From: Tubulanus polymorphus
Lineage: Eukaryota > Nemertea > Palaeonemertea > Tubulaniformes > Tubulanidae
NCBI RefSeq assembly: GCF_964204645.1
Contig: NC_134030.1
Span: 10,662,278-10,726,277 of the forward strand
Length of the DNA stretch: 64,000 nucleotides
Reading direction: 5' to 3'
Shown: positions 52,917-63,675 of the stretch, piece by piece
Layout: each line of letters starts with the position of its first letter
Position numbering within the stretch: the first letter of the stretch is position 1
Notes under the pieces: model-generated
What the model was told of the DNA's origin: nothing
Databases searched by the model: none
The model's input: only the letters and a program-made list of their open reading frames with translations
Program-made: the position numbers and the translations under genes

Positions 52917-53034
52917 TTAGTCTAATAATAGTCTTGAATTGGGGCATTGTAAATGATATCACAGTAATCGGGATGTTGGGGAAAAAATCGCAAAAATAAA
53001 GAACCATGGAGCAAAATGATTCACAGTGCTTTTA

Positions 53035-53098
53035 GGTTTACGTAGCAACATTAAACTGGATTCTTGCAGAAACGGATGGCCAGTGAAGGCGCTGAAGA
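53035..53098 (-). mobile_element. LINE fragment shared with 59490-59570
   Basis: GTGCTTTTAGGTTTACGTAG and GCCAGTGAAGGCGCTGAAGA match the LINE remnant at 59220-59570. It abuts copy B of the segmental duplication. Confidence 0.6.
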
Positions 53099-54540
53099 GC
53101 TCGTATCAACCGGGTATTTCCGTTTTCGTTTGATCGGACTATTTTTTCGTTTTAACGTGGCAGGAAAAAGTTCGTTTTATTGCGCGATAAAACGACTTTT
53201 AGCCGGGCGGTTTTAAAATCAAAATTTGCAACGCCTTTTTTTAGGTTACATCGCCCGTTCAGTCACCAATAGTAATACGTTGAAACGTACATCAATTATA
53301 ACAAAAGTTATATTTTCGTTGTAAATGACATTTTTAAATATTAGAATCGAACAAACTGACACACATCCACATGTATCGTTCATTTATAAACTACAACAAG
53401 TTATGTAACGAAGAATGCGACTGTTATCTATATGAGCATACTTCAGTTGGTCGATGACAGTTGCAAAATTACCGGCTAGTCTTATTGCAGCAAATATATA
53501 GTGACTTCTAGTTTGCAGCGGAAACTTCGGCCTACTATAAAATACACGATGAAGATTGTGGCAGAATTGATGGCATTTGTATGGTGGCTGATAAGGGCCA
53601 TAGCGTAAAATTCCTGGTATGTAAATGAGGGCGCCAGAACGCCAGAACGCCAAAACGAAAAAAAACGTCCAATTTTCTCTAAAAGTTCGTTTTGGCGCGC
53701 CAAAACAAAGAAAATTCCGTTTTGGCGCCCCCGCCAAAACAAAGAAAATTCCGTTTTGGCGCCCCCGCCAAAACGAACTTTCATTTTGGCGCCCCCGCCA
53801 AAACGAACTTTCGTTTTGGCGCCCCCGCCAAAACAACGAAAAACGTCGAAATTTCTCTAAAAGTTCGTTTTGGCGCGCCAAAACAACGAATATTCCGTTT
53901 TGGCGCCCCCGCCAAAACAACGAAAAACGTCCAATTTTCTCTAAAAGTTCGTTTTGGCGCGCCAAAACGGAGAATATTCCGTTTTGGCGCCCCCGCCAAA
54001 ACGAACTTTCATTTTGGCGCCCCCGCCAAAACAACGAAAAACGTCGAAATTTCTCTGAAAGTTCGTTTTGGCGCGCCAAAACAAAGAAAAGTTCGTTTTG
54101 GCGCGTTGATCTTGTGTGTAATTTGCATAAATTTGCATAAATGAAAATATTTTACGTATATATAGAATTATTTTACGTGGTTTAAAGTTCGTATTGGCGG
54201 GGGCGCCAAAACGAAAGTTCGTTTTGGCGGGGGCGCCAAAAACGGAATTTTCTTTGTTTTGGCGCGCCAAAACGAACTTTTAGAGAAAATTGGACGTTTT
54301 TTTTCGTTTTGGCGTTCTGGCGTTCTGGCGCCCTCATTTACATACCAGGAATTTTACGCTATGGCCCTTATCAGCCACCATACTTATCAGCCACCATACA
54401 TTTGAGTATTCATCGGTCATATAAATATCTGTCCAGAAAACTCGCCAACTGTCGTTATTCATTGGTTTAGCGGACCCCAGAATTTTCGGAAATCTATTGA
54501 TGAGATCGATGGCTATTTGACCACAGTTACAACAAATACA
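53099..54540. repeat. Local segmental duplication, copy B (pairs with 45582-46490)
   Basis: Same order as copy A, but with the foldback element 53580-54398 inserted and without the about 260-bp block present in copy A. Confidence 0.8.
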
Positions 54541-54880
54541 CAAAAGGGCGGCTCCAACGATCATGGCAGTGCTTTGTAAATCGATGGATTTCTTTTCGTG
54601 CCCGAGTCCTACAATTTCCTTTCCTTCTGATTTTGTGTAGGTTATCAATTTATAGATCAAAAGACGCAAAAGTCGTAAAATACCAGCTGATGGAATATAA
54701 AGATGGATCATATTGACAATGAATATCAAATCTGCTCTCCTAAATTTTCTATACTTCCTGACCAATACGTGTCTACCATAACACGGACTTGTCACTGGAA
54801 TACGCACGAAAGCGTAAAAGGCGTAGAAAATGTGAAATCCACAAAAAAGAAGAAACGACGTTACGGAATAGACAGTGGTT
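53483..54880 (-). pseudogene. GPCR remnant (TM4-TM7) interrupted by a foldback element
   Basis: From about 54880 the minus strand reads through FLLFCGFHIFYAFYAF (TM4-like), a loop, ADLIFIVNMIHLYIPSA (TM5), STAMIVGAALLCICC (TM6) and VFWTDIYMTDEYSN. There the foldback element breaks the frame. On its other side the frame resumes AINSATIFIVYFIV (TM7, NSxxxFxxY type), GRSFRCKL and a stop at 53483. The N-terminal half (TM1-TM3) is absent; a poly-G run (54892-54906) lies at the break. Clearly non-functional. Paralogue of the remnant at 46260-46495. I describe the break and do not rejoin it. Confidence 0.8.
53580..54398 (+). mobile_element. Foldback element 1 with TTTTGGCGC arrays, 6-bp duplication CATTTG
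   Basis: The termini are TATGGTGGCTGATAAG and its inverse; the inverse is doubled at the right end. CATTTG flanks both sides (53574-53579, 54399-54404), and the locus at 46377-46404 shows the empty site. Subterminal parts are about 80 bp inverted. The body is an array of about 30 half-sites TTTTGGCG/CGCCAAAA arranged as palindromes, separated by short alternating spacers. A unique about 80-bp AT-rich centre holds TTACGTATATATAGAATT. No transposase. Long frames here (including repeats of KRSFWRAKT-like units) are artefacts of the array. Confidence 0.92.
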
Positions 54881-54891
54881 GGTTCCTTATG

Positions 54892-54906
54892 GGGGGGGGG
54901 GGGGGT
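54892..54906. repeat. Poly-G run
   Basis: About 15 G followed by a G/A-rich purine tract (GGAGGGAGGGAGGAGGGGAG), a potential quadruplex-forming sequence on the plus strand. Confidence 0.85.
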
Positions 54907-55119
54907 TGGAGGGAGGGAGGAGGGGAGAGAGAAGAGGTATTTTTGAACGATCCATTTCTTGATTGGGTCCCAGGGCCGGGGCTGCGACTAAGTAACAATT
55001 GGCTTAAGTGGATTCGCCACTGGGAAGAAAGTCGTATATTCTTGTCATATCGGTTTTTGTATCGGTAAATATAATTCATCGACTACAACCTACTCTCGTG
55101 AAGAAATAGTATCCGAATA

Positions 55120-55144
55120 CAGATATATATATATATATATATAT
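55120..55144. repeat. (TA)n microsatellite
   Basis: About 11 TA units, 215 bp upstream of the secreted-protein start at 55357. Confidence 0.85.
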
Positions 55145-55356
55145 TACAAGTCCAGGCAGTAGTAATACCTTGAGGATACTTCATGTGCAGCAAGACTTAC
55201 AGTAAGTTGTGAGTGGTTCCCAGGGTCCAAAGAGACGAGGGCTTGTTCAATAAGCCACATTAGGAGTTCCACAGGCTTACGGAGACGGTGGACGGCACAC
55301 GCGGAGACGGTGCAGACATCACACTCGGAGAATAATAGAAAGCTCGTAAAAGATTG

Positions 55357-56031
55357 ATGAATGAACTAAAAATGACTGCGGACACTAGGTGGCCGCCGCG
55401 ATGTGTGGCGTATCTGATAATTTTGATGACGATACTTGTGAATTGCGGAGCTCATTCTAATGCAACATATTCCCAAACTGATTCTGGTGTTTGGACCTGG
55501 AGCAGCGGAAGCGGTTCACAGCCACCACAACAAAATACACTTGTGACATTAGAACGTAGAGGAGATGAACTGACGTTCGAACCGAAAGTAAAATCCAATT
55601 GGTTTAATTTCAATTTTTCCTGTCTTTACAAACTGGTCTCTTTTGATCGCCAAGGAAGACATATATTCCTGACGTTTCCTACTGGCGGCGTTTACATTCG
55701 ATTCAACGATTTATCGCTGTGTTATTTGGATACGAATAGGAAGTTATCTCAACGTTCCCAAACATTTTGCAGTTCAGAACGAGTAACCTTGAAATCAACA
55801 GCATTGTTCGAATTAATGATAAACAAATCTGAAGAATATTTAAACGTGCAAATTTGTGTGGACGGTAATTGTAATGAGGAAGCGTTTGTAGTAAACTCGC
55901 TGGTCTTCCACAGAAACGATATCAAAAGTAATTCGATGGTTATTGAAGGTGGGAGAAGTTATAGATATGAAATTGGAAATCTGGTGATAAACAGTACTAC
56001 ATTAGCACCGGGTAAATTAGATTTACATTAG
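55357..56031 (+). CDS. Secreted orphan protein, possibly first exon of a longer gene
   Basis: 224 codons, ATG at 55357 (second ATG at 55372). A hydrophobic segment CVAYLIILMTILVNCGA at about residues 16-32 fits a signal peptide or signal anchor. The mature part has six Cys (SCLYK, LCYLD, FCSSE, ICVDGNC), N-glycosylation sites (NATYS, NFSC, NKSE, NSTT) and alternating beta-type pattern (HIFLTFPTGGVYIRFNDLS). No family recognised; the layout suggests an extracellular beta-sandwich domain. Near the end, CACCGG/GTAAAT could be a splice donor, in which case the protein continues, but I find no following exon. It lies between a GPCR remnant and duplicated non-coding blocks. Confidence 0.6.
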   Translation: MNELKMTADTRWPPRCVAYLIILMTILVNCGAHSNATYSQTDSGVWTWSSGSGSQPPQQNTLVTLERRGDELTFEPKVKSNWFNFNFSCLYKLVSFDRQGRHIFLTFPTGGVYIRFNDLSLCYLDTNRKLSQRSQTFCSSERVTLKSTALFELMINKSEEYLNVQICVDGNCNEEAFVVNSLVFHRNDIKSNSMVIEGGRSYRYEIGNLVINSTTLAPGKLDLH

Positions 56032-57132: not shown

Positions 57133-58758
57133 AGGCGCTTTTACGAAACTGAATCTTTGTAAAACGAATTAAGTTTCACGTTTACAGCACACTATGGTGG
57201 CTGATAAGTATGGTGGCTGATAAGGGCCATAGCGTTAAATTCCTGGTATGTAAATGAGGGCGCCAGAACGCCAGAACGCCAAAACGAAAAAAAACGTCCA
57301 ATTTTCTCTAAAAGTTCGTTTTGGCGCGCCAAAACAACGAATATTCCGTTTTGGCGCCCCCGCCAAAACAACGAAAAACGTCCAATTTTCTCTAAAAGTT
57401 CGTTTTGGTGCGCCAAAACAAAGAAAATTCCGTTTTGGCGCCCGCGCCAAAACGAACTTTCATTTTGGCGCCCCCGCCAAAACAACGAAAAACGTCGAAA
57501 TTTCTCTAAAAGTTCGTTTTGGCGCGCCAAAAACGGAGAAAATTCCGTTTTGGCGCCCCCGCCAAAACGAACTTTCATTTTGGCGCCCCCGCCAAAACGA
57601 ACTTTCGTTTTGGCGCCCTCGCCAAAACAACGAAATACGTCCAATTTTCTCTGAAAGTTCGTTTTGGCGCGCCAAAACGGAGAAAATTCCGTTTTGGCGC
57701 CCCCGCCAAAACGAACTTTCATTTTGGCGCCCCCGCCAAAACAACGAAAAACGTCGAAATTTCTCTAAAAGTTCGTTTTGGCGCGCCAAAACGGAGAAAA
57801 TTCCGTTTTGGCACCCCGCCAAAACGAACTTTCATTTTGGCGCCCCCGCCAAAACGAACTTTGGTTTTGGCGCCCCCGCCAAAACAACGAAAAACGTCCA
57901 ATTTTCTCTGAAAGTTCGTTTTGGCGCGCCAAAACAACGAATATTCCGTTTTGGCACCCCCGCCAATACGAACTTTAAACCACGTAAAATAATTCTATAT
58001 ATACGTAAAATATTTTCATTTATGCAAATTTATGCAAATTACACACAAGATCAACGCGCCAATTTGAAAAATAATTTTACTGTGGTTGAATGCTTGTTTT
58101 GGCGGGGGCGCCAAAACGGAAATAACCGCGCCAAAACGGATTATTCGTTGTTTTGGCGCGCCAAAACGAACTTTTAGAGAAATTTCGACGTTTTTCGTTG
58201 TTTTGGCGGGGGCACCAAAACGAAAGTTCGTTTTGGCGGGGGCGCCAAAATGAAAGTTCGTTTTGGCGGGGGCGCCAAAACGGAATTTTCTCCGTTTTGG
58301 CGCGGAAAAACGAACTTTCAGAGAAAATTGGACGTTTTTCGTTGTTTTGGCGTTCTGGCGTTCTGGCGCCCTCATTTACATACCAGGAATTTTACGCTAT
58401 GGTCCTTATCAGCCACCATAGCACACGGTTTAGTGAATCCGATTTTGTAAATCAACGCGTTTATGGAAACGGTTTAGTAAATTGATTCATTTACTCGGCG
58501 AGCAAGTTAGTGGCGATTTAGTCAGCTAAATCCAACATGGCGTCCCCTTCGACCGCGGGCTAAAGACATTTATCGCAAATTGTCGTCTATCAATAATTCG
58601 GTCACCATTGACGCCCATTTTCTTTCGAATCGTGACCTTTGAATTGATCATGATTCGACTCATTTCTGAAAAACGATTCGATTTACTAATCCTGTCGGTT
58701 TCCGACATCGAATCGGACTTAGCTAAACCGAATCAGATTCAATTTCGTAAAAGCGCCT
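57133..58758. mobile_element. Outer MITE (AGGCGCTTTTACGAAA termini), hosts a foldback element
   Basis: The left end AGGCGCTTTTACGAAACTGA is the inverse of the right end TTCAATTTCGTAAAAGCGCCT (with one mismatch). AAT flanks both ends (57130-57132, 58759-58761). Removing the inserted foldback element leaves about 390 bp of MITE. Non-coding. Confidence 0.7.
57193..58420 (-). mobile_element. Foldback element 2 with TTTTGGCGC arrays, 6-bp duplication GCACAC
   Basis: Same termini and body as element 1 but in the opposite orientation: the doubled TATGGTGGCTGATAAG is on the left and the AT-rich centre (about 57965-58050) is the inverse. GCACAC flanks both sides (57187-57192, 58421-58426). It is longer (1228 bp) through a larger left array. 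It sits inside the outer MITE 57133-58758. Non-coding. Confidence 0.92.
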
Positions 58759-62935: not shown

Positions 62936-63675
62936 CTAAAAAAGACACCGTTTCATCGGAGGAAAGTTTTTAGTAACAAAATAAACATTCTCGAAAGATA
63001 CTCTAAATTCATTCCATAACTATTCCGTCATTCACGGTGGTTTTGTTTTCGAAGTTCTGCAGTGTTTAGTTTTTCAGCGTTTACTCTCTAAAAGCCATAG
63101 AATTAGATGGAGAGGTTAAAACATCATGGATTTTCAGCGCTTTCAACTCTACGTTTCTACATGAGAGGAAGATGAATGTTTGTATTTGAAATATGGGCGG
63201 CTGATTCGAGCCATTGTAAAAAGAAAAACAAAACATATTCCATGTTCAGGTCGACTTGGTCGTTTTTAGTTACAACGTGCTGGTCCTTTTTTCGTTGTTA
63301 ATACTGTGTTAGAAAGAACACTTAGTTTGAACGTGGCGTTAATATGACGGCAGCTCCCCGACATCCAATATGAAAATACGCAACCTCCCTTACTCGGACA
63401 AGTTTGGACCGACAAAAAAAGAAAGTAAGAAGTAAATTTCTGAACATAATATGTCAACTCGACATAAAATCGGCAAAACATTTTCTAAAGTATAACGGTA
63501 CCAGAAAATAGATCTAAAGAACACAACGTACTTTGATACCCTATGGACTATAATATCACCATCATTCTATGGACACAGGGTCACTTACCGAATTACCGAA
63601 TCGGGGATGAATTTAGTAAAGTAACGCATAGCGATCAGAACATTTCTATAGAATTTCATTTAGTCTATCATTATC
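62936..63675. other. Intergenic; no gene recognised
   Basis: No supported coding or repeat signal. Confidence 0.45.

Follow-up and report, generated by a model that had tools for sequence, protein, structure and literature searches.

The two palindrome-rich elements found in the 64-kb window, i.e., the whole stretch of DNA that was analysed, are non-autonomous derivatives of a cut-and-paste transposon of the IS3EU type, which is designated family A here. Their ends, the 6-bp duplications of their target sites, the arrays shared with long relatives, the coding regions of these relatives and the sister families with other palindromes were all observed directly. We regard it as rather probable that the elements, called W1 and W2, are short IS3EU-type copies whose palindromes are putative dimer-binding sites for the transposase of their own family. 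The initial annotation had proposed that the same arrays could be binding sites for the cell cycle regulator E2F. Compared with that reading, the existence of sister families in which the palindromes are altered is the more interesting result.

Two fold-back elements in the window

The proposal that W1 and W2 are fold-back elements (Table 1) was borne out by arm identity, folding energy and palindrome content. The arms of W1 are 96% identical across 203 bp, which gives a terminal inverted repeat longer than 30 bp as in IS3EU elements, and the single strand has a folding energy of -368.6 kcal/mol versus a mean of -126.3 for 20 shuffled sequences. Long inverted repeats made of internal tandem repeats represent a foldback-type architecture, a term that refers here to design and not to membership in the FB family. 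With 15 copies each of TTTTGGCG and CGCCAAAA, W1 contains exactly the 30 half-sites that had been estimated; W2 contains 45 (22 and 23, respectively). Most of them are part of inward-facing palindromes, 13 in W1 and 19 in W2, whose length is either 16 or 20 bp and thus close to, if not identical with, the range of 16-22 bp reported before. In the entire window TTTTGGCG occurs 78 times versus 3.15 expected, a number not reached in any of 100 shuffles (maximum 9). The E2F/DP consensus TTTSSCGC is present 53 times versus 8.3 expected (0 of 100 shuffles reached 53), and 49 of these matches are located in the two elements.

Table 1. Features of W1 and W2 (window coordinates) and of two long relatives (genome coordinates)
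Feature	Position	Strand	Length	Remarks
W1	53580..54398	.	819 bp	Non-autonomous fold-back element, IS3EU-type family A, ends TATGG..CCATA
W1 target-site duplication, left copy	53574..53579	.		CATTTG
W1 target-site duplication, right copy	54399..54404	.		CATTTG
W1 left palindrome array	53640..54105	.		TTTTGGCG/CGCCAAAA
W1 right palindrome array	54184..54314	.		Inverted relative to left array
W1 doubled 16-bp terminus	54367..54398	-		Outer copy abutted by target duplication
W2	57193..58420	.	1228 bp	Second non-autonomous element of family A
W2 target-site duplication, left copy	57187..57192	.		GCACAC
W2 target-site duplication, right copy	58421..58426	.		GCACAC
W2 doubled 16-bp terminus	57193..57224	+		Outer copy abutted by target duplication
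W2 left palindrome array	57270..57976	.		Overlapping tandem periods including 84, 115, 145 and 259 bp
W2 right palindrome array	58097..58352	.		
L001	C1:21785906-21794736		8.8 kb	Duplication TAAAAC; W1/W2-type ends and palindrome arrays
L015	C1:4406522-4416409		9.9 kb	Duplication AATATG; W1/W2-type ends and palindrome arrays

Several other features were seen in the window. W1 interrupts an ORF on the minus strand (53000-55400) which extends to 226 amino acids once W1 is removed together with either duplication copy; by eye it resembles the end of a 7TM receptor, and a Pfam scan of the interrupted ORF gave no match. A fragment with G-type half-sites (CGTTTTAACG, GCGATAAAACG; see below for family G) lies directly to the left of W1 at 53140-53195. 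Further single half-sites were seen at positions 1914 and 45667; a stretch at 63193 resembles the terminus, from which it differs by 4 mismatches. ORFs on the minus strand between 47168 and 48894 look by eye like Penelope-type reverse transcriptases; the longer of them had no Pfam match at an E-value of 0.01.

Element ends and target-site duplications

The elements start with TATGGTGG and end with CCACCATA, and thus have the TA..TA and TAYGG..CCRTA ends of IS3EU transposons. The duplications CATTTG and GCACAC, exact on both flanks of W1 and W2, respectively, and the doubling of the 16-bp end on one side of each element had not been noted before. An exact 6-bp duplication, which is likewise an IS3EU property, was found in 18 of the 28 elements in which both ends were recognised by pattern, the remaining 10 being without one. 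These 18 consist of 11 of 17 elements in a first sample of loci (described below), all three of a further set (C8:3177602, C7:10231968, C10:11518010), the long elements of sister families E and F, and two of six elements in a second sample.

A genome search with the 16-bp terminus TATGGTGGCTGATAAG, as recommended in the initial annotation, yielded many copies, namely 657 exact ones in 267.8 Mb (346 forward, 311 reverse) versus none for the reversed control. At seven places the terminus is tandemly doubled, five of them in family A (W1, W2, L003, L013, L087) and two in family C (L008, L088); doubling therefore had at least two origins. In W1, W2 and L013 an exact duplication adjoins the outer copy, which argues that a doubled end is usable for insertion. 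At L003 and L008 an exact duplication was absent. The doubled end of L013 is located on the other side of the central spacer than those of W1, W2 and L087, which means either a third doubling event or an inverted centre.

Other transposon classes were considered as well. hAT, Mutator and Transib were dropped once the 6-bp duplication and the TATGG ends had been established. Polintons, which also have a 6-bp duplication, were rejected on account of the wrong ends and the small size of the elements.

Long relatives code for a transposase and a HECT-domain protein

Looking for an autonomous relative that combines these termini with a transposase gene had been suggested as a further check, and L001 is such a relative of the autonomous type. 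Four successive ORFs of L001 are colinear with the rva_4 profile PF24764 (profile positions 5-32, 62-103, 103-141 and 142-173), one of the four scoring above the family cut-off on its own and three below it. The assignment as transposase is based on the order of the ORFs and on the motifs HLDGYDKLKP, RMDAGTEN and RIERWW, in which we read the DDE triad by eye. The D, D and E motifs of an integrase-like DDE transposase were recognised in the same manner in exons of families E and F and of another transposase locus, L055.

On the strand opposite to the transposase ORFs, L001 contains an ORF of 632 amino acids (L001:4682-6580) with a HECT domain (Pfam HECT, E = 7.9e-9) and no additional Pfam domain; a PDB search gave a weak E3C match (E = 0.005). 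Its C-terminal RTC..LPETY looks by eye like a kept HECT active site. The ORF is present in full length and with 100% identity at six places in the genome, each of which has transposase exon 7 nearby at 99-100% identity, and an alignment of L001 with L015 shows 99.5% identity across 7,228 bp. The near-identity of these long copies indicates that family A has moved recently. Next to the L055 transposase a stretch with 53% identity includes the HECT part of this second ORF. By contrast, the match next to the transposases of E and F is confined to the N-terminal part (35-37%), with the HECT part being unmatched.

The palindrome arrays of W1 and W2 recur in six long relatives. There they are organised in a higher-order unit of 144 bp, and the existence of such a unit had been correctly predicted from the alternating spacers. 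Counted as exact matches to the spacer, the left and right arrays of the six copies contain 8/9, 3/6, 7/8, 6/6, 10/6 and 4/at least 7 of the 144-bp spacers, the last value being a lower bound due to incomplete coverage of the right end of that copy, C4; the range is 3-10 spacers per array.

More remote loci were also inspected. Six other PF24764 loci (L043-L047, L049) are more distant transposases, and no 6-bp-flanked TAYGG pair was found there. At L043, a distant IS3EU-like relative, an HTH_21 domain precedes the rva_4 core in one frame, a PDB search with this transposase gave no match, and the vicinity contains different, CGACATAT-rich palindrome repeats and TACGGAAGCGATAA ends. Neither an array nor an end was present in the stretches examined around the decayed close relatives L050 and L056. 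L066-L069 were inspected in search of the ends that L050 and L055 had lacked; none seen there was convincing, with one 2-mismatch match in L067.

Sister families with other palindromes

The first sample comprised 42 loci (L001-L042) taken among the first 100 terminus places listed, of which 21 belong to family A, 17 to B and one to C, two are other or mosaic types (L002, L035) and one is arrayless (L016). A second sample with the ends TATGGTGGCTGAT-TCG or -TAG added 17 loci, several without a clear array. The sister families agree in their outermost 13 bp and in the way the arrays are built, but have TTTTGTCGC, TTTTTGCGC, TTTTATCGC or TTTTCTCGC as half-sites. The dominant half-site of family A is TTTTGGCGC (palindrome TTTTGGCGCGCCAAAA), that of C and E TTTTTGCGC, that of G TTTTATCGC, and that of the group L078-L080 TTTTCTCGC, whereas family F mixes TTTTTGCGC, TTTCTGCGC, TTTTGGCGC and TTTTAGCGC in one array. 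Family B is dominated by TTTTGTCGC and TTTTATCGC; the latter is often paired with a GT arm, so that arms are not always complementary. The long elements of E and F follow the same plan as A, with 6-bp duplications (GTTCAG and GATTCG, respectively) and different palindromes. Family G is defined by the array next to the L055 transposase, whose terminus was not found there; the G unit is also present in a complete short element, L077.

Because all 17 B loci have a single near-identical flank (GACCTTAAGGCTT-like), they are probably one insertion amplified within a larger tandem repeat (L048, ~5.85 kb) and represent one case, from which the B-type ends in L002 are separate. B-type arrays were seen in large tandem repeats (L048, G000:C2:10635488-10663730, and C2:11621649-11634875; ~5.85 kb and ~4.3 kb spacing), which gives the impression of an IS3EU end incorporated into a macrosatellite.

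A genome-wide count of exact TTTTNNCGCGNNAAAA gave 765 sites versus 51 for the reversed control. Of the 50 sites at the head of the listing, 34 represent the A palindrome, one is TTTTGTCGCGACAAAA and 15 are non-palindromic, which argues for different loops and a looser symmetry in the other families. L016, L035 and the left end of L002 have the same terminus and no such palindromes; the arrays may therefore be dispensable for elements with this terminus.

The initial annotation was right in that the half-sites match the E2F consensus (20 matches in W1, 29 in W2). That E2F is the reason for the arrays is, however, not supported by the sister families. TTTSSCGC amounts to 29.3 per kb in long and 20.1 per kb in short copies of family A and to 12.7 per kb in F, as opposed to 0 in the samples of B, C, E and G, which share the outermost 13 bp (the C and G samples measure merely 394 and 300 bp, and the B value refers to 16 of 17 loci, with L034 omitted as its array is interrupted by other DNA). 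Eleven of the 12 -TCG loci have no match and L072 has one, while four of the five -TAG loci have some. The E2F consensus is thus not kept across related array-bearing families. What is kept is a palindrome-like array with TTTT and CGC, and it is the dinucleotide read by E2F that varies, family F, in which roughly one in four half-sites is of the E2F type, being intermediate.

We therefore consider it improbable that the arrays go back to a capture of E2F/DP sites by the transposon, either for an S-phase response of the transposase and HECT genes or of the copies, or for titration of E2F. The fit of TTTGGCGC to TTTSSCGC, the conservation of the core above the spacers, the matches retained in F and the four PF02319 matches (E2F/DP-type domains) encoded by the host all agree with such a capture, and amplified sites in plant transposons are reported to bind E2Fa (PMC12595863). 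Since both genes of L001 point inwards from the arrays, with transposase exon 1 starting ~190 bp from the left and the HECT ORF ~1.4 kb from the right array, an effect of E2F on transcription of family A is possible. Nevertheless, the unit that persists is the whole palindrome, and relatives that keep their arrays change exactly the dinucleotide that E2F reads.

Conservation of palindrome cores and divergence of transposases

In 20 family A loci (L026 and the long copies left out) none of 64 core positions and 18 of 80 spacer positions were polymorphic, i.e., 15% or more of the aligned copies deviated there from the unit consensus (Fisher p = 1.3e-5). The initial annotation had named a small copy number and an unconserved core as arguments against its own reading; the 657 copies and the constant core are the opposite. 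At the remaining, non-polymorphic positions, cores and spacers diverge equally from the consensus (0.0297 and 0.0294, respectively), which gives no indication that the host selects on sites after their insertion. From these alignments, core constancy may be read as constraint during the activity of the element rather than as selection by the host on copies already in place.

The constancy of the cores next to variable spacers also bears on the idea that the arrays have no role in binding and arose as side effects when long inverted repeats underwent hairpin-prone replication and unequal exchange. We consider this idea unlikely because palindromes recur in several families with their letters changed, although near-identical copies differ widely in array number, W1 folds into strong hairpins, B-type arrays were amplified as tandem ~5.85-kb repeats, and an array of this kind is missing from certain loci that share the terminus.

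Between families, transposase exon 1, which encodes the N-terminal part, is least conserved (28-34% in comparisons of A with E, F and G). By contrast, A and the sister transposases share 61% in exon 2 and 61-79% in the three catalytic exons. The last exon is also strongly divergent (39-54%). For F and G the exon 1 value is 69% despite their differing palindrome cores; transposase and array are therefore loosely matched, which weakens a one-to-one version of this relation.

Discussion

W1 and W2 have retained the long terminal inverted repeats of a relative that measures 8.8-9.9 kb and has genes for a multi-exon, integrase-like DDE transposase and for a protein with a HECT domain. According to the docking model that we favor, every 16-20-bp palindrome would be a candidate dimer-binding site for the transposase of the family, and the outermost TATGGTGGCTGAT the cleavage end common to the families. 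By recruiting several transposase dimers the arrays would increase both specificity and avidity, while sister families would be kept apart by the middle dinucleotide of TTTTnnCGC. The length of the arrays probably changes by unequal exchange, and the match to E2F would simply be the GG state of the variable dinucleotide.

A protein other than the transposase might also occupy the arrays, be it a host factor involved in chromatin, replication or silencing or the product of the second ORF. In A, E and F and at L055 a relative of this ORF lies beside the transposase gene, and the arrays are dense in CpG (72 in the 819 bp of W1). A host protein would, however, not be expected to track family boundaries, and HECT is the sole Pfam domain of the second ORF, which makes such an occupant very improbable.

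Arrays read by the transposase itself have parallels among known transposons, which differ from the present elements in other respects. Galileo and Foldback of Drosophila have long, internally repeated inverted repeats as well, but their ends and duplication lengths are not those of the present elements. PiggyBac and piggyBat share palindromes near the ends; they belong to a different superfamily with few sites instead of arrays of dozens, and the piggyBac-type target duplication is TTAA. The inverted repeats of Galileo are described as holding extra transposase-binding sites (PMC3688188). Its transposase is of the P type with a THAP domain (PMC3688188), whereas the match here is to rva_4, and no THAP domain was detected in 12 scanned L001 translations. 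In piggyBac and piggyBat a dimer of the transposase reportedly binds the end palindromes, the palindromes recognised by the two related enzymes have nothing in common, and subterminal sites can also restrain activity (PMC11707139). The present arrays fit the pattern of Galileo and piggyBac with respect to the near-fixed outer end, the family-specific inner site, the many copies and the symmetry. MITEs of Brassica resemble family A in that transposons multiplied E2F motifs (PMC12595863); the motif there is reported to bind E2Fa, in contrast to a match by sequence alone and sister families devoid of the motif in the present case.

Family A agrees with IS3EU (IS3EU/GingerRoot) in the 6-bp duplication, the TAYGG..CCRTA ends, the terminal inverted repeats of more than 30 bp and the integrase-like DDE transposase, and differs in its long palindrome-array repeats and its HECT-domain gene. 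The same ends, duplications and inverted repeats of more than 30 bp are given for fungal IS3EU families in PMC12730594, and TA..TA ends (always) and 6-bp duplications (usually) for complete families in PMC10045372. Fungal TET-bearing families are described as carrying alpha-kinase and TET/JBP genes (PMC12730594). The word HECT is absent from PMC10045372, and a search combining HECT with transposon terms found no paper in the library used, which leaves papers outside it and Repbase uncovered. Among the 10 of 85 matches listed for IS3EU with tandem or palindromic repeats, one, PMC8268682, contains the word IS3EU.

It is tempting to speculate, albeit with considerable doubt, that an IS3EU radiation within one genome combined the near-fixed end TATGGTGGCTGAT with a family-specific dinucleotide code in TTTTnnCGC (GG, GT/AT, TG, AT, CT), which was exchanged in dozens of copies on either side of an element and co-evolved with the fast-changing N-terminal domain of the transposase. 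If true, rewriting of arrays would split a transposon lineage into families that do not cross-mobilise one another. The elements also hold a warning, as a dense array of perfect transcription factor consensus sites in a repeat may be a coincidence that only sister families expose. With sister families that have a common end, differing arrays and, for several of them, short copies, the function of long, internally repeated inverted repeats becomes testable in this genome, and so does the question of how transposon families stop mobilising one another's copies.
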